From NCBI GenBank assembly GCA_029981855.1, contig JARRCS010000003.1, positions 62,001 to 126,000 of the forward strand: a stretch of DNA of 64,000 nt, written 5' to 3'. Of the stretch, positions 25,341 through 40,573 are shown piece after piece (the first letter of the stretch is position 1; each line of letters starts with the position of its first letter). The notes beneath the pieces were generated by a model, which was given only the letters and a program-made list of their open reading frames with translations, did no database searches and was not told the origin of the DNA. The stretch is from Halanaerobiales bacterium (GTDB taxonomy: Bacteria > Bacillota > Halanaerobiia > Halanaerobiales > DTU029). The position numbers and the translations under genes are program-made.

Positions 25341-27836
25341 ATGAGTAAAAAAATTGTTATTGTTGGTGGGGTTGCCGGCGGTGCTAGTACAGCCGCCCGG
25401 TTAAGAAGGCTTGATGAAGAGGCTGAAATAGTTGTCTTTGAAAAGGGTGAGTATATCTCTTTTGCTAACTGCGGGCTTCCATACCATATAGGAGAGGTTA
25501 TTGAGGATAGGGAGAGATTACTGGTTCAGACTCCGGAGTCAATGAAGGCCAGATTCAATATCAGTTGTAAAATCAAAAATGAGGTTATAGCTATTGACCG
25601 GGAGAGGAAGGAGGTTCGGGTTAAGGACCTTGAAAAAGATAAAACCTTTAGTGAAAGTTATGACTATCTCATTCTCTCGCCCGGTGCCAGTCCTATCAAA
25701 CCACCCCTTGAGGGAATTAATAACCCCAATGTCTTTACCTTAAGGAATATACCCGATACTGATGAAATTAAAGAATTTATTGATAAGAGGAAACCCGAAA
25801 GGGCTGTTGTTGTTGGCGGTGGTTTTATCGGGCTAGAGATGGTTGAAAATTTACACGCCCGGGGAATCGATGTTTCTCTGGTAGAGATGGCTGACCAGGT
25901 CCTGCCACCCATAGATTATGAGATGGCAGCTATGGTTCACAACCATTTAAGGATGAAGGGAATTCACCTCTATTTAGGAGACGGGATTGCCGGAATTAAG
26001 GAAGAGAATGATGGGACTAAAGTTATTCTCCAGAGTGGTACCGGGATTGATACCGATATGGTTATCCTGGCGATCGGGGTCAGGCCCGAAACAAAACTGG
26101 CCGAAGAGGCAGGTCTGGAGATAGGTTCTACCGGTGGTATTAAGGTGAATGAATACCTACAGACCTCTGATGAGAACATTTATGCCCTGGGAGATGCTAT
26201 TGAGGTCACTGATTATGTAACCGGTGAGCCCGCCTTAATCCCCCTGGCAGGACCGGCAAATAAACAGGGGAGAATAGTGGCCAATAATATTGCCGGCCGG
26301 AAGGAAAAATATCAAGGGACACAGGGAACTTCCATTGCCAAGATCTTTGATCTGGCCGTTGGGTCTACCGGTGTAAATGAAAAACGGTTGAAAAAGGCCG
26401 GGCTCGATTATCAGGTTTCCTATACTGATTCCAATAATCATGCCGGTTATTATCCAGGGGCAAAACCGATGTTTATCAAGATTCTCTTCACCCCCGATGA
26501 AGGTAAATTGCTGGGAGCCCAGATAGTAGGGCATGAGGGGGTGGATAAGCGAATAGATGTCTTTGCTACCGCTATCAGACAGGGGTTGACGGTCTTTGAT
26601 CTCCAGGAACTGGAACTGGCTTATGCCCCTCCCTTTGGTTCCGCCAAGGATCCGGTTAATATGGCCGGTTTTACAGCAGGAAATATCTTGAATGGTATCG
26701 TTGAGCCCATTCAGTGGCATGAGATAGATGATCTTGATCAGGATACTATTATTCTTGATGTTAGACAGGAGATTGAGACTAAACTGGGAAAGATTGAAGG
26801 CTCTATTAATATCCCGTTAAATAGTTTGCGGGACCGGCTTGCTGAATTAGATAAGGATAAGGAAATAGTTGTTTACTGTGCAATTGGTTTGAGGGGTTAT
26901 ATTGCCTGCCGGATTTTAATGCAGAATGGTTTTGAAAAGGTCAAAAATCTGGCCGGTGGTTACAAGCTTTATAAAGCCGTCCAGGATGACCGGAATCAGG
27001 TTATTGAAGGTCCCGAACAGGAAGAATTGACCTCTGCCTCCAATCCGGAAAAAGGTCAGATAGTCGGGGAAAAGGTTGCCCAAAAAAAAATCGGTAAAGA
27101 GGTGAAACTTGATGCCTGCGGCTTGCAGTGCCCGGGTCCGATTATGCAGGTCTATAGAAAGATGGAGGAACTTGAGGAAGGGGATATTCTGGTTGTTACC
27201 GCTACCGACCCCGGTTTCAGAAGGGATATTGAATCCTGGTGCAGGAATACCGGTAATACTCTGATAAATGCTGAAGATGAAGCAGGGAAAATAAAGGTAT
27301 CTATCCGTAAAGGACGGGGGGAGGAGAGTGCTACCAGGGAGGCTATCAACCTATCCTCTCCGGCTAAAAAGAGCAAGACTATGGTAGTATTCAGCGGGGA
27401 TTTAGACCGGGCAATTGCTTCCTTCATTATTGCTAATGGTGCCGCAGCCATGGGAAATGAGGTTACCCTCTTTTTTACCTTCTGGGGGCTGAATATCCTG
27501 AGAAAAGATAAATATGTTGATGTTGATAAGGGTTTTATGGATAGAATGTTCAGCAAAATGATGCCCCGGGGCAGCAAGAAACTTCCCCTCTCAAATATGA
27601 ATATGTTCGGTCTGGGACCCAAGCTGATCCGTAAGGTAATGAAGGATAAGGGGGTTAATTCCCTGGAGGAGTTGATCGGTCAGGCTAAATTAAATGGAGT
27701 AAGACTTGTCGCCTGTCAGATGTCGATGGATGTAATGGGTATTAAGAAGGAAGAGCTGATAGATGGGGTTGAAGTCGGTGGGGTGGCCACCTTCCTGGGG
27801 GCAGCCGATGAATCAAATATGACCCTCTTTATTTAA
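25341..27836 (+). CDS. Four-domain CoA-disulfide/persulfide reductase: FAD oxidoreductase-rhodanese-TusA-DsrE fusion
   Basis: An 831-residue sulfur-handling fusion. Residues 1-450 are a pyridine nucleotide-disulfide oxidoreductase of the CoADR type: FAD motif VGGVAGGASTAARL, single redox cysteine in FANCGLPYHIG near 43, NAD motif VVGGGFIGLEM. Residues ~460-555 are rhodanese with active cysteine in VVYCAIGLRGY. Residues ~585-660 are TusA-like, LDACGLQCPGPIM. Residues ~675-831 are DsrE/F-like (VVFSGDLDRAIASFII). CoADR-rhodanese enzymes reduce CoA-disulfide, persulfide or polysulfide; the added sulfur carriers suggest transfer of sulfane sulfur in cis. It follows the ArsR gene and is closed by a terminator. 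Confidence 0.88.
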   Translation: MSKKIVIVGGVAGGASTAARLRRLDEEAEIVVFEKGEYISFANCGLPYHIGEVIEDRERLLVQTPESMKARFNISCKIKNEVIAIDRERKEVRVKDLEKDKTFSESYDYLILSPGASPIKPPLEGINNPNVFTLRNIPDTDEIKEFIDKRKPERAVVVGGGFIGLEMVENLHARGIDVSLVEMADQVLPPIDYEMAAMVHNHLRMKGIHLYLGDGIAGIKEENDGTKVILQSGTGIDTDMVILAIGVRPETKLAEEAGLEIGSTGGIKVNEYLQTSDENIYALGDAIEVTDYVTGEPALIPLAGPANKQGRIVANNIAGRKEKYQGTQGTSIAKIFDLAVGSTGVNEKRLKKAGLDYQVSYTDSNNHAGYYPGAKPMFIKILFTPDEGKLLGAQIVGHEGVDKRIDVFATAIRQGLTVFDLQELELAYAPPFGSAKDPVNMAGFTAGNILNGIVEPIQWHEIDDLDQDTIILDVRQEIETKLGKIEGSINIPLNSLRDRLAELDKDKEIVVYCAIGLRGYIACRILMQNGFEKVKNLAGGYKLYKAVQDDRNQVIEGPEQEELTSASNPEKGQIVGEKVAQKKIGKEVKLDACGLQCPGPIMQVYRKMEELEEGDILVVTATDPGFRRDIESWCRNTGNTLINAEDEAGKIKVSIRKGRGEESATREAINLSSPAKKSKTMVVFSGDLDRAIASFIIANGAAAMGNEVTLFFTFWGLNILRKDKYVDVDKGFMDRMFSKMMPRGSKKLPLSNMNMFGLGPKLIRKVMKDKGVNSLEELIGQAKLNGVRLVACQMSMDVMGIKKEELIDGVEVGGVATFLGAADESNMTLFI

Positions 27837-27886: not shown

Positions 27887-27925
27887 TGTGTTCATGAATA
27901 AATTATGAGGAAGAGAAAAATAAAA

Positions 27926-27991
27926 CTATGTTTGCAGCAAACTCCAGAATATGCTATAATATAAACAAACATGTGTATTCTTAGATAGGTT
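27926..27991 (+). promoter_or_regulatory. DNA-repair promoter/operator module, copy A
   Basis: TTGCAG (27932-27937) and TATAAT (27955-27960) are 17 bp apart. A LexA-like palindrome, AAAC-ATGT-GTAT (27967-27978) with ACATGT core, overlaps the expected transcription start. The 66-bp block differs at one base from 38453-38518. It drives the YhaO/YhaN/AddB/AddA-like operon. Confidence 0.75.
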
Positions 27992-28046
27992 CCGGTAAAC
28001 AGACCGGAGCAAAACTATATCTACCGTTACCGGGGGGAAGTCAGGT

Positions 28047-29417
28047 ATGATCTCCTATGTATATGATAGTATTCGCTTTATTCATGCTGCAGATATCCAT
28101 CTGGGGAGTCTGCCTCATGTTAGCGGTGAACTACCTGAGGAACTTAATGACATCATTAAGCAGGCTACATACCGGGCCTTTGCCCGGATCTGTAAGAAAG
28201 CCATCGATTATAATGTAGATTTTTTAGTCTTATCCGGTGATGTTTATGACCGGGAAGCCCGTTCGGTTAAGGCCATGAGGTTCTTCAATGAACAGTGTGA
28301 AAGGTTGCAAAAAAATTCAATACCGGTATACACCATTACCGGTAACCATGACCCCCTGCGGGAACGGGGTGAGCTTTTAAAACTGCCGGAAAATGTCCAT
28401 GTTATCGGTAGTGAGCAGGTAGATATCCGGGAGGTCAGAAATAAAGAGGGTGAAGTGATAGCCCGTATACTGGGCAGGTCATATAAAGAGAGGGTCCTGT
28501 CCGACCGGGAGCTTTTCAAACACTTTAACCTTCCCGATAGTGGTGTCTGGAATATCGGGCTTTTACATACACAACTGGATCCTAATAACAGTAATTATCT
28601 TCCCTGTTCCCTTGATGATCTCCGTGCGGTGGACAACATCCACTACTGGGCTTTAGGACATATTCATAAATGCAGGATCCTTCAGCATCAATGGCCGGTG
28701 GTGGCCTATTCAGGGATACCACAGGGGCGTGATTTCGGAGAAGAAGGACTGGGTGGCTGTCTTCTGGTGGAGATGAACCCCCACCGGGCCCCGGAGATTA
28801 AATTCTTACCCCTTTCTCCTGTGGTGCTGGAACGGGTGGAGGTCAAAATTGATGAAGATCCGGACCGTATTCCGGGGAATATCCCCGAGCTGGAAGAACT
28901 GGTCCTGAGGAAGGCTAAAAACATCCTGGATGGAGGACCGGTGATACCCGGTGGTTTAAAAGCGGTCGAAGGGGAAATCGGTAATATAGAAGGTTATATT
29001 ATCCAGTGGGTAATTACGGGGAGAGGAGAAATCCACCAGCAGTTGGAGGAACAGGAGGAAGAGGTCCGTCAGGTCCTGGCGGATAGCCTGAGGCAGAGGT
29101 TGCGGTATGAAAAACCCTTTATCTGGACTGATTCTGTTTTGATCAGGACCGGTAACCAGCTTCCTGAACTTGAGGTACTGAAAGACAACAACCCCGTCTT
29201 CAGGGAAGTTGAAGAAGTGATTAATTTATGCCTGACCGACCGGGGTATGAGAGAGAAACTGCTTGAGGAAATTGGACAGGTCTGGGAAATAAACCCGGAC
29301 CACGAAAGGATAGATGAAACCAGGATACAGCTGGATGATGACATGATCGGGGCCATTATTGAGCAGGCCCGCCAGCTGGTAGTTGAAAAACTGGTAGAGG
29401 GGAGGGGCCCTAAATGA
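28047..29417 (+). CDS. YhaO/SbcD-like DNA repair exonuclease (Mre11 family)
   Basis: A metal-dependent nuclease of 456 residues. The calcineurin-like phosphoesterase motifs are complete: FIHAADIHLG near 10-20, LSGDVYD near 62, ITGNHDPL near 95, LLHTQ near 173 and ALGHIHKC near 203. A C-terminal region of about 200 residues would contact the partner ATPase. ATG 28047 follows GGGGGG by 9 nt. The stop overlaps the next gene by ATGA, so nuclease and ATPase are made together, as in Mre11-Rad50 and B. subtilis YhaO-YhaN. Expression should follow the 27926 promoter, probably DNA-damage inducible. Confidence 0.88.
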   Translation: MISYVYDSIRFIHAADIHLGSLPHVSGELPEELNDIIKQATYRAFARICKKAIDYNVDFLVLSGDVYDREARSVKAMRFFNEQCERLQKNSIPVYTITGNHDPLRERGELLKLPENVHVIGSEQVDIREVRNKEGEVIARILGRSYKERVLSDRELFKHFNLPDSGVWNIGLLHTQLDPNNSNYLPCSLDDLRAVDNIHYWALGHIHKCRILQHQWPVVAYSGIPQGRDFGEEGLGGCLLVEMNPHRAPEIKFLPLSPVVLERVEVKIDEDPDRIPGNIPELEELVLRKAKNILDGGPVIPGGLKAVEGEIGNIEGYIIQWVITGRGEIHQQLEEQEEEVRQVLADSLRQRLRYEKPFIWTDSVLIRTGNQLPELEVLKDNNPVFREVEEVINLCLTDRGMREKLLEEIGQVWEINPDHERIDETRIQLDDDMIGAIIEQARQLVVEKLVEGRGPK

Positions 29418-32293
29418 AGATAAAAAGACTGTACATTAAGGATTTCGGGATCTTTAGGGAGCAACAACTTAAGGACCTGTCTCCCGGGGTAATTGTAATC
29501 GGAGGGCCGAACAGGGCCGGGAAAACCACCCTCTTACATGTTTTGCGTTATCTCTGGTATGGTTTCCCTCCCGGGGGCAACTTGCCTCCCGCTACCAGGA
29601 GATATGAGGTCGAAGTGGATATAACAGATGGTTCAGAAGAGTTTAACCTCTATCTGGAGGGTTATGCTAAACCCAAACTGACCTGTAACGGAAGTACCGG
29701 CAAAAAGATTAGCCATGAAGAGCTCTTCCGCCTCGATGCCTTTACCTACCACCGTTTATTTACCGTTTCTCTTGATGAATTACGTAATATTCCGGCCGGG
29801 GTCGATGACACCGAGAGGTTGCAGTCCATCCTGCTGGGAGCGGGATTGGGAGAGATCGTTATGATACCGCAGCTGGAAGAAGAACTGAATAAAAGGGCCC
29901 ATGATATAGGGCGCACCAGGGGAAACCCCAGATACGGCTCTTTTACCCCCTATTACCGCCAGATTGAAGAGGGAATTAAGCTCAGGCAGAAGGCCTTAAA
30001 CCAGATCAACGAATATGAAGAGAAAAAAAGGGAACTGGAACTAATCAGTAATCAAATTTCAACCCTGGAAGAAAAAACCATTCCCGAACTTGAAGATAAA
30101 TACATCGTCCTTGATGTTTTAAAGAATAACTATCTTAATTATCAGGAGAAGGAAAGGCTTAGACTTCAGCTGGACCGTTCCGATATTCAGGACCTGCTCC
30201 GGAACTTCCCGGCCGCTAGAGTGGAAAGGGTTAAAAATATACAGGAAAGATACCATCAGGCCCTTGAGGATTATAACTACCGGTTAGACCGGTTCCGGCA
30301 GGTGGTAACCGGGGAGAAGATTGAAGAGATTAAGGACACATTTTTACAACACAGAGATGAGTTTCGCCAGTATACCCACCTCCTATCGGGGTTGAGGGAA
30401 AGGGTAAATAATTACTTCATAAGGCTTGGAGAGCACCGTGATCAGAGAAATGAAATATATATGGAAATGAAACAGGTCAATTCCGCCTGGGATGACTTTG
30501 AAGTACTAAAGGAGATCAGAACCGATTGGCTTGAACAGGATACCCTGAACCGGAATATAGTTAACTGTATAGAATTACAAAAGGAACAGAGAGACCTTTC
30601 CAGAGAGATTGAAAAACTGGAAGTGGAAAAGGAGCTGCTGGAAAGACAGCTTGCCACCGGGGTTAATGAACCGGAAGCGGATCTAAGAAACTATTTTATT
30701 CTGTCTATCCTGTTTGCACTGGTGGGTGCCGGATTGTCACTGTTTAATGTCGTGGCAGGTTTAATCATCGGACTGGCCGGTATCATTGGTACCGCATTCT
30801 TTCTCTGGAAAAGAAGCATATCCGCTCACAGTCAGAGGCAAGACCGGGAACAGTTACGCAGGAAATTGGAAGATGTACTAACCAGTCTGGATTTTAATAA
30901 AAAGGAACTGGAAAAGACCGGAAAAAGGCTAAGCCCCCTGGAAACACAGCTCCAGGGCTACCGCCGTCTGCTGGGAGTGGATGATAACGTTTCTCCGGAA
31001 ATGGTCAGGGTGATCTTTAGTCGGGTCCGGGATTTAAAGGAAAAGCTTTATCGCTGGGAGCAGCAGGAACAGGAACAGGAACGGAACGGGCAGGAACTGG
31101 ATCAGGAACTTAAAAGAATCGAGCAGCTTTTACAGCAGTTTACAGAGATCATCGATAACCGGGTATTATCTGATTTCAGCAACAGGGACTTAATTGAAGA
31201 AAGAATCCGGGCCGGTGAAAAGTTACTTGTTCTTCTTGAAGAGTTCTGTAAATACTGTGAGTTGGCAGTAGAACTGGACGACAAAGAACACAGGGTCAGG
31301 GAGATTGAAAAAGAAATTTACCGGCTCCTCGAAGTAGAGGATGAGTCGGAAGACCTGACGGAGGAATTAAAACTATTTCTGACAAAAGGGGAGGATTATA
31401 GAAGGTATAAAGAACTTGAAGAAAGGTGTGAACTGCTGGAGTTACAGATATCCAGTAAGCTCGGGACCGAGAGGGTAAGGAAGGCCCTGAAGAATCTCTT
31501 TGCCGAAAAAAATGATGATTTTAATGATGAAAGGATGTCTGTTCTTTTTGCTGAATTTTACAGCCATTATACCTCACTCGAAGATGTTGAGAATGATTAC
31601 CGGGAGACGGAGAAAAGACTGCATGAGTTAAAGAAGGAACTGGAGGGGTTAAAAGGGGAGCAGCTATCCCTGCAGGAAAAACTGGAAGAATTAGCGACAA
31701 CAAAAAAACTGGAGGAAGCCCAGAGAAAGATTGACGAAGCCAGGGCGGAAATAAAACCTCTGGCCGAAAAATATGCGGTATACAGGGTAGCGACCTTTAT
31801 CCTGGGCCAGGTCAGAACCAGGTTTATGAACAGGGCAAGGGATACACTCCTGGACCAGGCCAGTAAGGTTTTAAAAAAGATGACCGGTGGTGAATATGTA
31901 AGGATTTTAGCCCCTGACAACCTGCTGGAAGCTGATTTCCAGGCCCTGTTACACGATGGCAGAAAACAGGGAACGGTTAATATCCTGAGCAGGGGAACCA
32001 GGGAACAGCTCTTTCTGGCGATCAGGGTCAGCAGGTTGAGGGAAATAGAACCCCCATTGCCGGTAATAGTTGATGATTCCCTGGTCAATTTCGACAGGTA
32101 CCACCTGGACAATACCGTGGAGATACTCCTGGATCTGGCCAGAACCCACCAGCTATTTATTCTGACCTGCCATCCGCATCTTGTTGAGTGTATTGCCGGC
32201 AAAAAGAACCGGGAAACGCAGTACTGGAAGTTAGAGGAGGGAAATTTTACTCTATCCACCGGAGAAGAACTGATCAGGGTGCTATCTAAATGA
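29414..32293 (+). CDS. YhaN/SbcC-like (Rad50-type) SMC ATPase with membrane hairpin
   Basis: A 959-residue ATPase that would open or hold DNA ends for the YhaO-like nuclease. Walker A is VIGGPNRAGKTT near 31-42. Long coiled coils rich in Glu, Leu and Arg fill about 180-420 and 470-810. Near 425-468 two hydrophobic helices (ILFALVGAGLSLF and AGLIIGLAGIIGTAF) interrupt the coil, as in YhaN rather than SbcC, so it may be membrane attached. The C-terminal head has the signature ILSRGTREQLFLAIR near 857 and Walker B PVIVDDSLVNFD near 882. There is no CXXC zinc hook. ATG overlaps the previous stop. Confidence 0.87.
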   Translation: MKIKRLYIKDFGIFREQQLKDLSPGVIVIGGPNRAGKTTLLHVLRYLWYGFPPGGNLPPATRRYEVEVDITDGSEEFNLYLEGYAKPKLTCNGSTGKKISHEELFRLDAFTYHRLFTVSLDELRNIPAGVDDTERLQSILLGAGLGEIVMIPQLEEELNKRAHDIGRTRGNPRYGSFTPYYRQIEEGIKLRQKALNQINEYEEKKRELELISNQISTLEEKTIPELEDKYIVLDVLKNNYLNYQEKERLRLQLDRSDIQDLLRNFPAARVERVKNIQERYHQALEDYNYRLDRFRQVVTGEKIEEIKDTFLQHRDEFRQYTHLLSGLRERVNNYFIRLGEHRDQRNEIYMEMKQVNSAWDDFEVLKEIRTDWLEQDTLNRNIVNCIELQKEQRDLSREIEKLEVEKELLERQLATGVNEPEADLRNYFILSILFALVGAGLSLFNVVAGLIIGLAGIIGTAFFLWKRSISAHSQRQDREQLRRKLEDVLTSLDFNKKELEKTGKRLSPLETQLQGYRRLLGVDDNVSPEMVRVIFSRVRDLKEKLYRWEQQEQEQERNGQELDQELKRIEQLLQQFTEIIDNRVLSDFSNRDLIEERIRAGEKLLVLLEEFCKYCELAVELDDKEHRVREIEKEIYRLLEVEDESEDLTEELKLFLTKGEDYRRYKELEERCELLELQISSKLGTERVRKALKNLFAEKNDDFNDERMSVLFAEFYSHYTSLEDVENDYRETEKRLHELKKELEGLKGEQLSLQEKLEELATTKKLEEAQRKIDEARAEIKPLAEKYAVYRVATFILGQVRTRFMNRARDTLLDQASKVLKKMTGGEYVRILAPDNLLEADFQALLHDGRKQGTVNILSRGTREQLFLAIRVSRLREIEPPLPVIVDDSLVNFDRYHLDNTVEILLDLARTHQLFILTCHPHLVECIAGKKNRETQYWKLEEGNFTLSTGEELIRVLSK

Positions 32294-32307
32294 AAGGGAG
32301 AACAGGG

Positions 32308-34902
32308 ATGAAGGTTAATTATCTAAATTATAAACAGGACCTTTTTCAGGAAGCAATTGATAATAAAGAACCTGTAGTTTATGTCTTTGATAACAACCAC
32401 AACAGGTTGCGGGCCAGGGAGTATTACGAAAGGCCCTTCCTTAAGCAGGAAAGCATTTTCCTGACCGTGGCCGAACTGAAAGAGAAACTATTTCCGGCAG
32501 ATAGACTGGTCCTGAAGGAAGAGAAACTGGCTGTTATTTTTTATGAACTGCTGACGGAGGAAGAGAAGCGGAAACTGAAGATAGATTCCTATTTTGATGC
32601 CATCGAACTGGCTGCAGAATTTTTTAACTTTTATGCTGAATTAAATGAGTATAATATTGGGAAACTAGAGGGTTTAAGGGACTGGCAGCAACAAAAATAC
32701 AACATTTTGCAGGGTATCAGGGAAAGGTACCTGGCCCGGATGGAGGAATTAAACTATACCGACCGGACCCTGGCTTTTAATTTTAATAACCTCTGCCTGG
32801 ATTACCTGAATGGTTACCGGAAGGTTGTTTTTGTAAACATAGTCAATTTTACCCCGAAGGAGAAGGAGTTGCTTGAAAGGCTGGAATTAGCGGGAATGAA
32901 GGTAGAACTGTACCTGCAGCTGGCCCCGCAGGATTTTGATGAAGGGAACCTAAGTCTAAAGTCAGTATCCCTCCCGGCTGACCCCGGGACAGCAATAAGA
33001 CTGTACCATACCGGGGATGATCTGCTCCAGCTTATTAATCTCATCATCCGGTGCGGCCAGGACTGCACCATTTTGGATGCTGATTATGATAACAGCAACT
33101 ACCACCGACTTTTATCCCCGGATAAAATCATAATAGATAAGGAGATCAGTTTCAGTGAGACGAAGATCTTCAGGTTCTTAAATAATCTTTACCGGCTGTA
33201 TGTTAATACCGGGCAGAGGGAGCATTATCTCATCCTGCCGGTAAATGATTTGCTGGAGGCCTGTTATCTCAGGGAGTTCAGGGACTACTACAGCCTTACC
33301 GGGTATAACCTGAGGGCCCTGCAGGAACTGGCCAGGAGTGGTTATGTTTACTTTTCACCTGAACTGACCCGGGACCACCGGGGACCTGCTCTGTCGGGGT
33401 TTGAACCCGTTATGGAGGACATAAAACAAATTAACGGGATGAGAACATTAAAGGAGTTCTGCAGTTTTCTGGAAGGGGTTAACCTCAGGAAACTAAATGA
33501 TTACTGGCTTGTGGACAATGTATCCCAGTACTTTGATGCCCTGCTGGAGCTGAGCTCGATTGAAGAGATGGGGATAGTCAGTTCCTGGAATAGATATTTT
33601 GACGATACTGCCCGGGGCCTGTTTCGAATGATCCTCAATTATTTGAGATATAAAAAGGTGAAACCGGTTAAAAATGGTGAAGGAGAAGGGGTCCGGCTGG
33701 ACAGCCTGCTTACGGCCTGTCATGATAAACGGGAAAGGGTAATTATTTTAAATGCCTCCCGGGGGGTGATTCCCTCCGAAAGGGAAGGTGGTTTCCTGCT
33801 GACGGAAAAGCAGCGCCTTGCCCTGGGTTTAAGGACCTATTCCGACCGCAGACTGGAAGAGAAGTACTACTTTTTCCGCCATCTTTTCAGCAGTAAGGAA
33901 GGGATTGTTTTCAGTCTGAAGAACCTGGAGGGGAATGTGACCAGTAGTTCCTTTGTCGATGAACTGAAGATAGAGTACGGCCTGGAAATAAGTGAAATGG
34001 AGGTAAGGGCCGTACACTATCCGGCAGTTATCAGCAGGATCTTTTCTCCGGAACATCTTTCTACTGCGTACAGGCCGGCCCCGGACAGCATCAGGGCGGA
34101 CAACCTGGTGATTGAAAGAGAAGATTTTTCGGAAGGGGTTTTTACACTGGGTTATTATAAATATAATACCTTAAAGGACTGTTACTACCGGTTTTACCTT
34201 GAACACATTGCGGATCTGGAAGAAGAAAGGCTGTTGATCAAAAAGGAATTAGACCCCATGGTTATCGGTAATTTTGTCCACGAAATCTTTACCGAGCTGA
34301 TTAATCGAACGGGGGTAAGTTTGCAGGTTGACAGAAGTCTGGTAGAGGAAGTAGTTGAAGAGAGGTTCAATTCATATGACCTCAGGATTGATGATTACTA
34401 TAAGAGGTACTACCGGGATGTATTGCTGAAAAAGATTAAGGAATCGGTTCTCTATTTTTTCGGGCTAATGAGAAAAAGGGTTAAGGAAGGGATTAAAAGT
34501 GTTAGGGTAGAGTGGCAGCCGGAGAACGGGCCCGATTCCGTCTTTTTCCGGCATCAAATGGTTGACCTCTATCTAAACGGTAGGATCGACCTTATTATTG
34601 ACACCGGGGAAAGGAAGTATATAGTTGATTTCAAGACCGGTGGCAGCAGCACCGATCAGCTGGATTTTTATTCCCTGCTTTTAAACCCTGACCTGGTAAA
34701 GGACTACCGGATCGAAAAGGGTATATATTCGGTAATGGAGGAAAGGTATATCCCCGGTCGACCGGGGACCGAATTCGATTTTGCCGCAGAGTTATCCGGT
34801 AACATAGAAGGATTATTTAGCTCCGGGGAATACAGGGCTGAGTATAGGTCAAGGTGTAAGAGGTGTATTTTTCTGGACATCTGCAGGGTGGTGATGGGAT
34901 GA
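32308..34902 (+). CDS. AddB-like subunit: inactive helicase fold plus PD-(D/E)XK nuclease with Fe-S staple
   Basis: A large 864-residue protein. The C-terminal third holds a PD-(D/E)XK nuclease: NFVHEIFTELI, GRIDLIID and YIVDFKTGG near 760-785. An AddB-type iron-sulfur cluster is implied by one cysteine before the nuclease (LKDCYYRFY) and three at the end (RCKRCIFLDIC). The N-terminal part shows no intact Walker A, as expected for AddB. ATG 32308 has AGGGAG 8 nt upstream; ATG 32290 only overlaps the previous stop. Its stop overlaps the AddA-like gene. Together they should resect double-strand ends. Overall similarity to Bacillus AddB is low, so the name is by architecture. Confidence 0.75.
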   Translation: MKVNYLNYKQDLFQEAIDNKEPVVYVFDNNHNRLRAREYYERPFLKQESIFLTVAELKEKLFPADRLVLKEEKLAVIFYELLTEEEKRKLKIDSYFDAIELAAEFFNFYAELNEYNIGKLEGLRDWQQQKYNILQGIRERYLARMEELNYTDRTLAFNFNNLCLDYLNGYRKVVFVNIVNFTPKEKELLERLELAGMKVELYLQLAPQDFDEGNLSLKSVSLPADPGTAIRLYHTGDDLLQLINLIIRCGQDCTILDADYDNSNYHRLLSPDKIIIDKEISFSETKIFRFLNNLYRLYVNTGQREHYLILPVNDLLEACYLREFRDYYSLTGYNLRALQELARSGYVYFSPELTRDHRGPALSGFEPVMEDIKQINGMRTLKEFCSFLEGVNLRKLNDYWLVDNVSQYFDALLELSSIEEMGIVSSWNRYFDDTARGLFRMILNYLRYKKVKPVKNGEGEGVRLDSLLTACHDKRERVIILNASRGVIPSEREGGFLLTEKQRLALGLRTYSDRRLEEKYYFFRHLFSSKEGIVFSLKNLEGNVTSSSFVDELKIEYGLEISEMEVRAVHYPAVISRIFSPEHLSTAYRPAPDSIRADNLVIEREDFSEGVFTLGYYKYNTLKDCYYRFYLEHIADLEEERLLIKKELDPMVIGNFVHEIFTELINRTGVSLQVDRSLVEEVVEERFNSYDLRIDDYYKRYYRDVLLKKIKESVLYFFGLMRKRVKEGIKSVRVEWQPENGPDSVFFRHQMVDLYLNGRIDLIIDTGERKYIVDFKTGGSSTDQLDFYSLLLNPDLVKDYRIEKGIYSVMEERYIPGRPGTEFDFAAELSGNIEGLFSSGEYRAEYRSRCKRCIFLDICRVVMG

Positions 34903-37900
34903 AAAAGGTACTTAAAGCCAGTGCCGGGACGGGAAAAACCTACAGACTATCGCTGGAGTATGTGGCCGCCCTGCTCAGAGGGCAGTCCTTTGAAGAGATA
35001 GTGGTCATGACCTTTACCCGGAAGGCAACGGCTGAAATAAGGGAGAGAATAATCGAACAGATCGAGGATATCCTGCAGAATGGGGAAGAAAGCAATATTT
35101 TTCAAAGCCTGAGGGGGGTTTATAAAGGGATCAACCTCAACCTTCCTGCCCTCCAACACATTTACCGGGAGATGCTGAAGAATAAAGACAGGATTAACAT
35201 CTATACCATCGATAGTTTTATCAACAGGATTTTTAAACAGGCCATAGCACCCTATCTCGGTATCTACAGGTACGAGATCATTGAAGATGAGCGCAATAGA
35301 GAGGTAATTGAAGAGGTCTTTAAAAGGATTCTGGACAATCCGGATGATTTTTCTCTGCTGGAGAGGTTTTTTACCGATAACACGGAAAGAAAAATTGATA
35401 AATACCTGAAACTGATCGGAAACATGCTCAATAACCGCTGGAAGTTTTTATTGATCGAACACAGGGCGCGGGCCCGCCGGCCCGTGGGTAATCTGGTAGC
35501 CCTCCTTGATGAGTGTATCGATACCCTGAGGGTGGTGGTTGCTGAGAAGGGACAGGCTTTTTCGGAGGAGTTCTTTACTACCCGTTTCCGCTCCTTTATT
35601 CCTGACTACCTGGAAGAAAAGGACCCGGCCGCCAGGCAGGATATAATTATAAAAAACCGCAACCACTTTTTCAATGACACCTTCTGGAATGGAAATAAAA
35701 TACGGGGCAGGGCCCTGGCCCCTCTCAGAGAGGAGCTTGCAGCCCGCTATGAGAACTTTCTGGAGCAACTGGCCGCTTATATCTACAATGAAGAGATGAT
35801 ACCCTATGAGGAAGAAATCTTTAACTTCTCTTCCCGGGTTTTTGAGATCTATGATAGTATTAAATTCCGGGAAAGGGTCTTTACCCATACTGATCTCAGT
35901 AATTATACCTACCAGTATTTCTATCATGATGAACTGGACCTGCTGGAAGGAAGAACCGTAAGTGATTACTTTTTTGAACTGCTGGGGACGGAGGTTAAAA
36001 GCCTTTATATCGATGAGTTTCAGGACACCAGCATTCTCCAGTGGAAGATACTGAAACCGTTGATTGACAGGTGTGAAAATGTAATAGCTGTAGGGGATGA
36101 GAAACAGTCGATTTACGGCTGGCGCGGGGGAGAAAAGGAGCTGTTTACCGCCCTGGACGGGATACTGGAGGGAGAATGTGAGTCCCTTTTAACCTGTTAC
36201 CGCAGTGAAAGGGAGATCATGGATTTCATCAACCGCTTTTTCCTGAACCTGGAAATCGACTGGGGGTATGAGGAGGTAAACCATGTACCCCATAAAGATG
36301 GGGGCTATGTGGAAGTATTGCTGGGGGGTGAAGGTGCCAGGATAAATACGGAAACCAATAAATTCAACAGTCTAAGTCAGGAAAGGCAGATGGAATTAAT
36401 TGCGATTAACGAGAGGTTGACCGGGAATCTAAAGAGGGAGATAGCCCTCAGGATTAAAGAACTACCTTCCTACAGCAATATCGGGGTCCTGGCCCGGGCC
36501 AATAACGACCTGGCTGAGATTGCAATTGAACTTGATAAAGAGGGCATACCCTATATCCTGGAGAGTAAGGACAGCCTGTTCGAACATGAGGCGGTAAAAC
36601 CTCTCTACTTTCTTTTAAACTACCTTGCCTATCGTGATTATTTTCAATTACTGAAATACTTAAGAAGCGACCTGGTCAGGGCAAATAACAGAGTCTTAAA
36701 ATACCTGCTTTGGAATAAAGATAGAGTACAGGGATTCATGTCCGGTAAACAGGACAGACTGGATTTAGGGGATGTGCAGGGTGTCCTGACTGAAATAAAG
36801 ATGCTTTTTAATCTTGATTACCGGCAGTTAACAAACTACCTGCTGGAAGAAACGGGTATCATGGAGCTTTACCGTGATAACGGTGGTGCACTAAAGAACC
36901 TTTACCATTTTTTCAGGTTAATGCGTCGGTTTTCCGATCTCAGTGACTTCATGAAGTACATTGAACAAAACTACGAAAGTGAAGAGCTAAAGCAGGTCGG
37001 TGTCCGGGAGAAAAATGCAGTAAAGTTAATGAGCATCCATAAGGCCAAGGGATTATCCTTTGAAACGGAGTTTTTTTACTGGAACCCCGGGTCAGGAAAT
37101 GGCGGCAGGTCCGGTAAGATGGAGATGTATATCAGTTTTGATGACCACTTCCAGGAAGTAACGGACTACCTGCTTACGGATTCCAAATATGAGAAGATAT
37201 TTAAAATCCTGGGGATAAACTTTGCCGAAGAAAAGGCCGAAAAGGAATTGATGGAGGAATTAAATAATGTTTATGTAGCACTGACCAGAGCCGAAAAAAA
37301 CCTCTTCTTCTTTATTGAAGCCCCCCGGAAGCTGGAAACCAATAGTGAGGGTAGGTGCTGGAGCGGTAGTGTTTCTTATGGGTTTTATGAAGAAGCTGTT
37401 CTCAGGGCTGCCGGTGTTTCTACCTTATGTGATCTGGTCGAAGGAAAGAGGCTGGGAGAGTTACAGGTAAGCGAACAGGAGGAGACCGGTAAAGGGATCG
37501 ACCTCCCCGAGTTAGCACCTTACTTCAGGCCGGCAGAAATACCGCCGGAGATTATTGAGGAGGCTAACAACAAAAAGGATTTCAGGATGAGCCTGGAAAA
37601 GGAGATAATCAGGATAGAAGGCCTGGCTATCCACTATTATCTGGAGCACGTGAAGTACGGGACCGAAGAGGAAAGGAGGCTGGGCCGGAATATGGTCCTG
37701 GCCCGGTACGGGAACATACTGGGGCCTGTGAGAACGGAAGAAATCATCAAACGGGTAGAGAAGTTTATAGAGGGCAATCCCCGGTACTTTGACAGTAGAT
37801 GGCGGGTCTTTAACGAGTATGTCATAAAGGGAGAGGATAAGGAATACAGAATAGACCGGCTGCTCATTGATGAAGACAGCAAGCTAATGGTTATCCTGGA

Positions 37901-38012
37901 TTATAAAAGCGGACAGACCAGAGAAGACTCCCAGCTGGAAAATTATAAGGAGATCATGATGAACATGACCAGGGGAGAATATAAAATTGAGACACATTTT
38001 GTAGATATATAA
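34899..38012 (+). CDS. AddA/RecB-like helicase-nuclease
   Basis: A 1037-residue UvrD-family helicase with a C-terminal nuclease. It starts KKVLKASAGTGKTYRLSLEY (Walker A), then VMTFTRKATAEIRERI, IDEFQDTSILQW, GDEKQSIYGWRGGE, SIHKAKGLSFETEFF and VALTRAEKNLFFF. The nuclease site is YRIDRLLI then ILDYKSGQ near 985-1010, with a following glutamine. ATG 34899 overlaps the AddB-like stop (ATGA) and has GGGTGG upstream. As the last gene of the four it would unwind and cut DNA ends for RecA loading. No clear terminator follows; AT-rich intergenic sequence begins at once. Confidence 0.85.
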   Translation: MKKVLKASAGTGKTYRLSLEYVAALLRGQSFEEIVVMTFTRKATAEIRERIIEQIEDILQNGEESNIFQSLRGVYKGINLNLPALQHIYREMLKNKDRINIYTIDSFINRIFKQAIAPYLGIYRYEIIEDERNREVIEEVFKRILDNPDDFSLLERFFTDNTERKIDKYLKLIGNMLNNRWKFLLIEHRARARRPVGNLVALLDECIDTLRVVVAEKGQAFSEEFFTTRFRSFIPDYLEEKDPAARQDIIIKNRNHFFNDTFWNGNKIRGRALAPLREELAARYENFLEQLAAYIYNEEMIPYEEEIFNFSSRVFEIYDSIKFRERVFTHTDLSNYTYQYFYHDELDLLEGRTVSDYFFELLGTEVKSLYIDEFQDTSILQWKILKPLIDRCENVIAVGDEKQSIYGWRGGEKELFTALDGILEGECESLLTCYRSEREIMDFINRFFLNLEIDWGYEEVNHVPHKDGGYVEVLLGGEGARINTETNKFNSLSQERQMELIAINERLTGNLKREIALRIKELPSYSNIGVLARANNDLAEIAIELDKEGIPYILESKDSLFEHEAVKPLYFLLNYLAYRDYFQLLKYLRSDLVRANNRVLKYLLWNKDRVQGFMSGKQDRLDLGDVQGVLTEIKMLFNLDYRQLTNYLLEETGIMELYRDNGGALKNLYHFFRLMRRFSDLSDFMKYIEQNYESEELKQVGVREKNAVKLMSIHKAKGLSFETEFFYWNPGSGNGGRSGKMEMYISFDDHFQEVTDYLLTDSKYEKIFKILGINFAEEKAEKELMEELNNVYVALTRAEKNLFFFIEAPRKLETNSEGRCWSGSVSYGFYEEAVLRAAGVSTLCDLVEGKRLGELQVSEQEETGKGIDLPELAPYFRPAEIPPEIIEEANNKKDFRMSLEKEIIRIEGLAIHYYLEHVKYGTEEERRLGRNMVLARYGNILGPVRTEEIIKRVEKFIEGNPRYFDSRWRVFNEYVIKGEDKEYRIDRLLIDEDSKLMVILDYKSGQTREDSQLENYKEIMMNMTRGEYKIETHFVDI

Positions 38013-38160
38013 AAGTATATAGACCTCCAGACAACTTTATATTTTCCATTATAGCTTTTAAAAAAGAGATATCCAGAGGATGATAGTGATAATACAATTA
38101 AACATCAAGAAGGAAAAACCATTTTTTTGTAGAATATTATAAAACAGGATATTGGAAAAA

Positions 38161-38206
38161 TGTCGTCGACCTCCGGTAGTGCAAAAACCCCCGGGGGCCG
38201 ACGACA
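38161..38206. repeat. GC-rich imperfect palindrome (16-bp arms, 14-nt loop)
   Basis: TGTCGTCGACCTCCGG (38161-38176) pairs with CCGGGGGCCGACGACA (38191-38206) apart from one A-C mismatch and one G-T pair, over TAGTGCAAAAACCC. A-rich or T-rich flanks on both sides could make it a bidirectional terminator, but the composition is strikingly unlike its surroundings. Confidence 0.7.
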
Positions 38207-38320
38207 AAAAAGAAAAGGTCATAAACCTTGTTATAACAGTATTCTTTATCTGCATATTACACAAATCACCAATATGGATGACACTTATTAAAAAACAAAG
38301 CTTCCTTACATTATGCATAT

Positions 38321-38416
38321 TAAATTAGTCTACCTATGAGGAATTGAAACCCGGGAAGTACTGGCTGGAGAAGCATACATAAAAAGATTTCTAGTCTACC
38401 TATGAGGAATTGAAAC
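38321..38416 (+). CRISPR. Orphan two-repeat CRISPR remnant
   Basis: Two 30-nt units (38321-38350 and 38387-38416) share 25 identical bases, TAGTCTACCTATGAGG followed by AATTGAAAC, a form typical of type I-B repeats in clostridia. The five leading bases differ. The single spacer (38351-38386) is 36 nt, a normal size. No cas gene or longer array is in the window, so this is probably a relic or a mini-array served in trans. Confidence 0.7.
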
Positions 38417-38452
38417 TGTCAATATCTTTTATTCTTTGGCAAAAAAATAAAT

Positions 38453-38518
38453 CTATGTTTGCAGTAAACTCCAGAATATGCTATAATATAAACAAACATG
38501 TGTATTCTTAGATAGGTT
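38453..38518 (+). promoter_or_regulatory. DNA-repair promoter/operator module, copy B
   Basis: Same module as 27926-27991 with a single base change. TTGCAG (38459-38464), 17-bp spacer, TATAAT (38482-38487), and the LexA-like AAAC-ATGT-GTAT (38494-38505) at the start site. It drives the radical SAM repair pair. Confidence 0.75.
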
Positions 38519-38537: not shown

Positions 38538-39836
38538 ATGGAACTTCGTGAAAAGCTTAAGATTCTGTCTGGTGCAGCCAAATATGATGCCTCCTGCTCC
38601 TCCAGCGGGAGTAACCGCAAAAATACCCCGGGAGGTATCGGTAATGGGGCAAGCAGCGGGATCTGTCATAGCTGGTCCGATGATGGGCGCTGTATCTCCC
38701 TGCTTAAAATTCTTTTTACCAACTACTGTATCTACGACTGTGCCTACTGCATTAACCGGGTCTCCAATGACCTGCCCAGGGCCTCCTTTACACCGGAGGA
38801 GGTTATAAAGCTAACGATTAATTTTTACCGCCGCAACTACATAGAAGGGCTCTTCTTAAGCTCGGCTGTAATTAAGAGCCCGGATTATACCATGGAATTA
38901 CTCCTTAAAACCGTCAGAAAACTGAGAGAGGAGTACAAATTTAACGGTTATATCCATCTTAAAGCAATACCCGGGGCAGATTTTTCTTTAATTGCCCGGG
39001 CAGGTAGATATGCCGACCGGATGAGTGTCAATATTGAGCTGCCTTCTAAAAAGAGCCTCAGTCTGTTAGCACCCCAGAAGAAGATGGAGAGTATATTAAC
39101 CCCGATGAAGGAAATCGGGCTCAATATTAAAGAGAATAGGGAGGAACGAAAGAAGAGTAAGAACCTGCCCAGGTTTGTCCCTGCCGGACAGAGTACCCAG
39201 TTAATCATCGGGGCCAGCCCGGAGACCGATTATCATATTCTCAAACTATGCGAGGCTCTCTATCAAAGGTTTAATTTAAAAAGGGTTTATTACTCTGCCT
39301 ACATTCCCGTTAGCAATAATCCCAGCCTGCCCCAGTTGAGAAGACCCCCGCTGCTTAGAGAGCACCGTCTCTACCAGGCCGACTGGTTACTGCGTTTTTA
39401 CGGTTTTGCTGCCGATGAACTTCTGGACAGGGCAAACCCAAATTTTAATCCTAAACTTGACCCTAAGGCTAACTGGGCCCTGAATCACCTCCATCTCTTT
39501 CCCCTGGAGGTCAACCGGGCTGATTATGAAATGCTGCTCAGGGTTCCAGGGATAGGCATAAAATCAGCCAGACGGATTGTCTCGGCCCGCAGGACCGGTA
39601 GCATTGATTTTGATGATTTGGAGAAATTTGGAACCGTATTAAAAAGGGCCAGGTATTTTATTACCTGTAAGGGAAAGTATTACGGAGGTATTCCCTTCAG
39701 GGAAGAATTAATCAAAGAGAGGCTGGTTGAAGGCAAAACAGGTTTGCATAGGCAGCAGCTTTCGTTATTTGATGATAATTCAATATCCGATATTGATGGT
39801 TTTTTGAGTGAAACAGTTGGAGGAAAAGAGGGATGA
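38538..39836 (+). CDS. Putative DNA modification/repair radical SAM protein (TIGR03916 type)
   Basis: A 432-residue radical SAM enzyme. The cluster motif is NYCIYDCAYC (CX3CX2C), preceded by the conserved GICHSWSDDGRCISLLK. The C-terminal region has a helix-hairpin-helix (LLRVPGIGIKSARRIV) expected to bind DNA. This combination defines the TIGR03916 family of presumed DNA repair enzymes; the chemical substrate is not known. ATG 38538 follows GGAGAGG; the frame opens at 38517, but those codons lie in the promoter repeat. The stop overlaps the TIGR03915 gene, its usual partner. The shared promoter supports a DNA-damage role. Confidence 0.88.
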   Translation: MELREKLKILSGAAKYDASCSSSGSNRKNTPGGIGNGASSGICHSWSDDGRCISLLKILFTNYCIYDCAYCINRVSNDLPRASFTPEEVIKLTINFYRRNYIEGLFLSSAVIKSPDYTMELLLKTVRKLREEYKFNGYIHLKAIPGADFSLIARAGRYADRMSVNIELPSKKSLSLLAPQKKMESILTPMKEIGLNIKENREERKKSKNLPRFVPAGQSTQLIIGASPETDYHILKLCEALYQRFNLKRVYYSAYIPVSNNPSLPQLRRPPLLREHRLYQADWLLRFYGFAADELLDRANPNFNPKLDPKANWALNHLHLFPLEVNRADYEMLLRVPGIGIKSARRIVSARRTGSIDFDDLEKFGTVLKRARYFITCKGKYYGGIPFREELIKERLVEGKTGLHRQQLSLFDDNSISDIDGFLSETVGGKEG

Positions 39837-40573
39837 TTTATTATATCTATGATGGAAGTTTTGAAGGTCTTTTGACTGCAATTTATGAAGCTTTTTATCA
39901 TGATGTTAAACCGGATATGATTCTGAAAAGGTCGGATTATCAGGAAAATCTTTTTGCTGAAAGGGTTGAAATCGTAACTGAACGGAATAAATCTGATAGG
40001 GTATATAACGCGGTCCGGGAGAAGATATCATCAAGGTCACTGCGAAAAATTTATTATGCCTTTTTGTCAGAGATAAAGGGAGTTGAAACCAGGATTTATC
40101 ACTATCTGCAATTGGGTTTTAAGATAGGGAGAAAGATTGATGGGCATTTAACAGATGATACCGTTTTAGAGCTAAATAGAATTAGCAATAAAGTTGGTCT
40201 GGAAAGGCACCGGCTCTTGGGGTTGATCCGTTTTCGCAGATTGGATAACGATATATACTATGCCCCCATTGAACCTGACTATAATATTATTGCTCTACTG
40301 GCTCCTCATTTCAGCAAAAGATTAGCCGACCAGAACTGGGTTATCCATGATCTCAAAAGAAAAGTGGCGGCTGTTTATAACCGGGAGGAATGGGTTTTGA
40401 CCGGGTTTTCCGGACAACCAGGCAGTTATGCTGAGGATGAGGCCATTTACCAATCCCTCTGGAAGGATTTCTTCAAGAATATAGCAATCACCAACAGAAA
40501 GAATTCCAGGCTGCAATTGCAGTTTATGCCCGTACGGTACTGGAAACATTTAATTGAAAAGGAGACTACTTAA
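39833..40573 (+). CDS. TIGR03915-family DNA repair partner protein
   Basis: A 246-residue protein starting YYIYDGSFEGLLTAIYEAFY, the hallmark of the TIGR03915 / DUF4130 family, with LGLIRFRRLDNDIYYAPIEP and PHFSKRLADQNWVIHD further on. Members are found beside TIGR03916 radical SAM genes, as here (ATGA overlap). They are annotated as probable DNA metabolism proteins; the activity is not established. No metal-binding cysteines or membrane segments are seen. A terminator follows directly. Confidence 0.85.
   Translation: MIYYIYDGSFEGLLTAIYEAFYHDVKPDMILKRSDYQENLFAERVEIVTERNKSDRVYNAVREKISSRSLRKIYYAFLSEIKGVETRIYHYLQLGFKIGRKIDGHLTDDTVLELNRISNKVGLERHRLLGLIRFRRLDNDIYYAPIEPDYNIIALLAPHFSKRLADQNWVIHDLKRKVAAVYNREEWVLTGFSGQPGSYAEDEAIYQSLWKDFFKNIAITNRKNSRLQLQFMPVRYWKHLIEKETT

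Follow-up and report, generated by a model that had tools for sequence, protein, structure and literature searches.

The LexA/SOS regulon of Gram-positive bacteria such as Bacillus subtilis, Clostridioides difficile and Staphylococcus aureus is characterized by the operator GAAC-N4-GTTC/T. Here, we analyzed a 64,000-nucleotide stretch of DNA from a Halanaerobiales bacterium (contig JARRCS010000003.1, positions 62,001 to 126,000; below, the window), belonging to a 2.59-Mb draft genome of 39 contigs, in which a nearly identical promoter/operator module precedes two sets of genes: a four-gene operon encoding YhaO-, YhaN-, AddB- and AddA-like proteins (operon 1) and the radical SAM pair TIGR03916/TIGR03915. 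We consider it quite probable, on the basis of the comparisons presented here, that an SOS promoter was duplicated by the insertion of operon 1 and that both operons are under predicted LexA control. The genome shares with the Gram-positive regulon the operator type, its occurrence at recA, uvrB, lexA-yneA, sbcD and dinB, and the promoter-overlapping position of the operator. It differs in that the right half-site is often TGTAT instead of TGTTC and in that the module operator is located 3' of the -10 element.

Several more specific systems resemble parts of this locus. In Clostridium acetobutylicum, the radical SAM operon CAC3343-CAC3344 was earlier predicted to be controlled by LexA (PMC3828012), and from its description in that study we infer that it is the same gene pair as TIGR03916/TIGR03915. 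A LexA-type operator is found upstream in both cases, but C. acetobutylicum has a single promoter and no inserted repair operon. The yhaONM genes of Bacillus are listed as lexA/SOS genes and were induced by H2O2 in Bacillus pumilus (PMC3896406). Operon 1 likewise comprises a YhaO-YhaN-type pair with predicted SOS control; however, AddB-AddA stands in place of YhaM, and the control would have arisen via promoter duplication and is not shared with relatives in its order. Finally, sbcDC of S. aureus harbors the LexA box CGAACAAATGTTCT (PMC11442139). A Mre11/Rad50-type nuclease is predicted to be under LexA in both organisms, but the counterpart of sbcDC here is a separate sbcD locus (CGAACAAATGTATT) and not operon 1.

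A repeated promoter with predicted LexA operators

The initial annotation had described two 66-bp copies (27926-27991 and 38453-38518) differing by one base, each with TTGCAG, a 17-bp spacer, TATAAT and the sequence AAAC-ATGT-GTAT. We located all of these elements in both copies. The sole mismatch is at 27938 (C)/38465 (T), AAAC-ATGT-GTAT lies at 27967-27978 and 38494-38505, and AAACATGTGTAT directly follows the extended TATAAT on its 3' side in each copy. At its full extent the repeat reaches 76 bp, with the copies 10,527 bp apart (Table 1), and its terminal 53 bp match exactly, which is far beyond chance. A search of the whole genome recovered these two copies and no others. Furthermore, a scan of 351 bp around the operon 1 start gave the promoter of copy 1 as its sole promoter-like match, 56 bp ahead of the first start codon. 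An inverted repeat, TCCGGTaaacagACCGGA, was also noticed at 27990-28022, within the predicted 5' untranslated region of this operon.

We gathered the regions upstream of TIGR03916 genes from other genomes (98 unique sequences, own genome excluded). De novo motif discovery by expectation maximization on these radical SAM promoters yielded CGAACATATGTTTG, which is the Gram-positive LexA box; the C. difficile lexA box, for comparison, is AGGAACAAATGTTTGC (PMC4234289). An earlier run, in which upstream regions of recA and of the radical SAM gene were pooled, had converged on a GC-rich coding-type motif and was discarded. A position weight matrix (PWM) was refined on Halanaerobiales promoters alone, leaving out the genome under study, and used to scan 63,987 window positions. 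The two module sites ranked first and second with 17.5 bits, the third best position reaching 12.1 bits.

Genome-wide, the exact palindrome GAAC-N4-GTTC was not enriched (13 matches versus 29 in the control), whereas the derived form RAACANNTGTWYK was (33 matches versus 8 in the reversed control), so that the canonical dyad taken by itself is a poor guide in this genome. Matches to RAACANNTGTWYK included recA (two sites), uvrB, sbcD and dinB, and a second pattern contributed the lexA/yneA region, on its yneA side. Assuming 10 core SOS genes with 250 bp each, the binomial probability that 5 or more of 22 sites fall close to such genes was about 2e-11. Repeats resembling insertion sequences (IS) that carry GAACAAATGTACG at contig ends were kept out of this regulon list. 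Additionally, the genome encodes a lexA of the Gram-positive type (TIGR00498, 234 bits) with a divergent LysM yneA-like gene alongside. The initial annotation had asked whether a lexA is present and whether the same type of palindrome precedes recA, lexA and uvr genes, and both proved to be the case. Its proposal of one SOS-type regulon is likewise supported computationally, by the top-ranked PWM sites and by the same motif at core SOS genes. Together, an operator overlapping the promoter, a box at core SOS genes and a matching lexA identify the module as a predicted LexA/SOS target.

Used as the query in a blind DNA search of 60 related genomes, the module matched 8 genomes, its own included, and the lexA promoters of G005 and G007 were among the closest same-family matches. 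These share the 30-bp TTTGC..TATAAT layout of the module and have their LexA box where the module has the possible weaker operator A; in one of the same-family lexA promoters, GAACGGTTGTTTG occupies the equivalent position.

When up to one mismatch was allowed, 76 of the 98 regions upstream of TIGR03916 contained a LexA site, compared to 16.3 in dinucleotide shuffles, and perfect sites numbered 37 compared to 0.9. Because of this enrichment, and with the box recurring across Halanaerobiales and Clostridia, we predict ancestral and widespread SOS control for the radical SAM pair. The initial annotation had tied this pair to DNA damage, and this holds, although the link had already been predicted (PMC3828012); the conserved operator extends that single published prediction for an uncharacterized gene pair to Clostridia and Halanaerobiia. 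No clear enrichment of LexA sites was found at YhaO-like genes (6/27 versus 3.8 in shuffles) or at AddB genes (2/12 versus 1.9). We treated operator conservation at orthologues as supporting evidence for a LexA target and not as a requirement. Since the operator of operon 1 is not conserved at its orthologues, YhaON-AddBA appears to be a new addition to the SOS regulon, brought in via promoter duplication. Judged from these promoters, it is operon 1, and not the radical SAM pair, whose predicted SOS control is unusual relative to relatives.

Insertion of operon 1 at the radical SAM locus

Family models agreed with the gene content given in the initial annotation, with nuclease, ATPase, AddB- and AddA-like genes behind copy 1 and the radical SAM pair behind copy 2. 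The four genes of operon 1 overlap, and the TIGR03916 and TIGR03915 genes are adjacent, both scoring above the curated cut-offs. A metallophosphoesterase and an AAA_27 coiled-coil ATPase in one operon point to a YhaO/YhaN-like, Mre11/Rad50-type pair; we preferred this label to SbcDC because of the AAA_27 domain and a separate true sbcD (L229). Similarly, the UvrD-type helicase adjoining a PD-(D/E)XK partner, with an orthologous pair in relatives (AddA identity, 57-62%), is predicted to be AddAB-like, a label chosen because the NCBIfam AddA equivalog cut-offs were not reached. The genome has no clear copy of YhaO or AddA other than those in operon 1, and no other strong match to either.

Table 1. 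Coordinates of the module copies, their elements and the neighboring genes in the window
Feature	Position	Strand	Remarks
Module copy 1, promoter/operator, ahead of operon 1	27916..27991	+	74/76 identity with copy 2
Module copy 2, promoter/operator, ahead of radical SAM pair	38443..38518	+	74/76 identity with copy 1; 10/12 promoter-like match with TG
Core promoter, copy 1	27932..27960	+	TTGCAG (27932-27937), 17 bp, TATAAT (27955-27960), extended -10 TGC
Core promoter, copy 2	38459..38487	+	TTGCAG (38459-38464), 17 bp, TATAAT (38482-38487), extended TGC
Operator B, copy 1, predicted LexA box CAAACATGTGTATT, just 3' of -10	27966..27979	+	Joint best PWM position
Operator B, copy 2, predicted LexA box CAAACATGTGTATT	38493..38506	+	Joint best PWM position, score equal to copy 1
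Operator A, copy 1, possible weaker operator TAAAACTATGTTTG, overlaps -35	27921..27934	+	PWM rank 5 in window
Operator A, copy 2, possible weaker operator TAAATCTATGTTTG, overlaps -35	38448..38461	+	Rank 3 by all-genome PWM
YhaO-like, Mre11/SbcD-type metallophosphoesterase, operon 1 gene 1	28047..29417	+	PF00149 5e-15; SbcD/Mre11 models weak
YhaN-like AAA_27/Rad50-type ATPase, operon 1 gene 2	29414..32293	+	PF13514 1.5e-12, PF13476; 4-bp overlap with gene 1
AddB-like PD-(D/E)XK nuclease, operon 1 gene 3	32290..34902	+	PF12705 1e-22; orthologue adjoins AddA in relatives
AddA-like UvrD/RecB helicase, operon 1 gene 4	34863..38012	+	PF00580; RecB-like helicase model 5e-88
TIGR03916 radical SAM gene	38538..39836	+	665 bits (cut-off 343.5)
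TIGR03915/DUF4130 partner	39833..40573	+	279 bits (cut-off 112); 4-bp overlap with radical SAM gene
CoA-disulfide-reductase-like gene, ancestral left neighbor of radical SAM pair	25341..27836	+	In relative G001, TIGR03916 comes directly after it
Two-repeat CRISPR (clustered regularly interspaced short palindromic repeats) remnant, right end of insert	38319..38416		Rfam CRISPR-DR2: gathering score at 38387-38416, weaker at 38319-38350

In the relative G001, 195 bp lie between the CoA-disulfide reductase gene and the TIGR03916 and TIGR03915 genes behind it, with no operon 1 in this interval, and in G004 two small genes separate the reductase from the radical SAM pair. Operon 1 was likewise missing from this locus in every other same-family genome sampled. 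Moreover, with 27992-38518 taken out, the sequence aligned to its G001 counterpart over the whole intergenic stretch between the reductase gene and the start of the radical SAM gene. This indicates that copy 1 occupies the ancestral place with respect to the left neighbor and copy 2 with respect to the right one, with a 10.5-kb insert in between. The initial annotation had offered selection or recent duplication as the reason for the repeat; the locus order in G001 and this alignment favor the duplication part, by way of the insertion of operon 1. The relatives examined encode the YhaON pair and AddBA at two separate places, neither of them at this locus, so that the joining of all four genes in one operon is also new. 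As a separate observation, AddB-AddA of G001 (L275, 2818-12169) is found behind a different SbcD/SbcC-like pair (386 and 809 amino acids), apparently an independent coupling of a Mre11/Rad50-type pair with AddBA.

The G001 promoter has its box, GAACGTGTGTAT, between -35 and -10; in the genome under study the same register has decayed to ACTCCAGAATAT, and the box lies just 3' of -10 in both module copies. Since this shift is common to both, the duplication would have followed it, or the copies have been homogenized since. As to the origin of the repeat, a circular molecule integrated by homology at the promoter and DNA captured at a staggered break would both fit. A foreign origin of operon 1 was not supported by GC content (0.44-0.50 inside versus 0.37-0.45 around), and its AddA is an ordinary family orthologue. 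We also rejected the idea that the module is a CRISPR leader because the repeats are upstream of the module, the module aligns with the G001 promoter, and copy 1 has no repeats; the repeat of the remnant has no other copy in the genome.

Predicted regulation and alternative explanations

We propose that the module acts as a sigma-A-type promoter whose start site is covered by a LexA operator and whose -35 element is probably covered by a second, weaker one. As long as the cell is undamaged, LexA at the start site would repress both operons; upon damage, RecA filaments would form and stimulate LexA cleavage, leading to joint induction. The ancestral switch would be the one ahead of the radical SAM/DUF4130 pair, and a 10.5-kb segment (yhaO-yhaN-addB-addA with the CRISPR remnant) would have inserted at this promoter, leaving one copy at each end, so that the radical SAM pair keeps its switch and operon 1 gains one. 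The locus would then be a clear natural case of regulon expansion via promoter duplication, with both the ancestral and the derived states visible.

The main DNA-end-resection enzyme of the cell has apparently been placed under damage control. Resection by AddAB yields the single-stranded DNA on which RecA is loaded (reviewed in PMC11442139), and because RecA filaments form on this DNA, SOS-controlled AddAB would give the damage response a positive feedback loop. We give about even chances to the broader scenario that a whole break-processing operon, with the only clear AddA and YhaO, entered the SOS regulon in one step at the duplicated promoter, making AddAB an SOS product and closing this loop. 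AddAB is usually regarded as a non-inducible trigger acting upstream of the SOS response; if AddAB is SOS induced here, this view would fail for this lineage. No report of LexA control of addAB was found in the literature searched.

Some observations weigh against LexA control through a duplicated promoter. The operator AAAC-ATGT-GTAT is imperfect, with 2 mismatches to GAAC-N4-GTTY, and lies 3' of -10, whereas the box of relatives lies between -35 and -10. The motif patterns also match non-SOS genes and IS-like repeats, and the basis is a single genome of the genus in a single draft assembly. The repeat could also be a by-product of a recent rearrangement, copy 1 having no regulatory meaning and operon 1 using another promoter. 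Indeed, with 2 differences in 76 bp the copies may be too young to show selection, and in relatives YhaON and AddBA are expressed with no enrichment of LexA boxes. However, the promoter is intact and the operator identical in both copies, within the 53 bp of exact match, the module is the only promoter-like match around the operon 1 start, and a functional promoter so close to the start codon would act whatever its origin. We consider this explanation unlikely.

An assembly artefact seems very improbable. In that case contigs would have been wrongly joined at the near-identical 66-bp repeat, and the true chromosome would show the gene order of the ancestor, operon 1 lying somewhere else. The number of contigs and the gene order of relatives, which equals this locus minus the insert, would agree with such an error, but the two base differences imply that both copies exist, and operon 1 would still need the same promoter on both sides, for example in a 10.5-kb circle. 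We give hardly any weight to the repeat being a recombination or transposition site that resembles a LexA operator by coincidence: although direct repeats flank the insert, with the CRISPR remnant at one end, the repeat aligns with the ancestral G001 radical SAM promoter and resembles lexA promoters, its operator matches those of SOS genes, it has no further copy in the genome, and no integrase or transposase is among the annotated operon 1 genes. It is just as improbable that another repressor with a similar site governs both operons. Two more LexA-like peptidase-domain proteins are encoded (C15:342 and C37:36030), but lexA and recA carry the same motif, and across Clostridia this motif corresponds to the canonical Gram-positive LexA box.

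Additional LexA-related sequences

The two additional LexA-type peptidase-domain proteins (G000:C15:342-704 and C37:36030-36443) scored below the LexA cut-off and are possibly phage or UmuD-like repressors. Repeated GAACAAATGTACG/AAACAAATGTACG sites were found on G000 contigs C1, C9, C14 and C16 (L206-L210, L216, L219 and L220), several of them at contig ends, and are probably part of an IS-like repeat bearing a LexA-box-like sequence. Finally, a perfect palindromic LexA box, GAACATGTGTTC, is present at L034, 1501-1648 (G000:C29:47443-47454). It is followed by a strong Shine-Dalgarno sequence, a 20-codon open reading frame (MSDFKIEMTIKITDESGKVE) and a terminator-like hairpin, and this reading frame may encode a small SOS-induced peptide.
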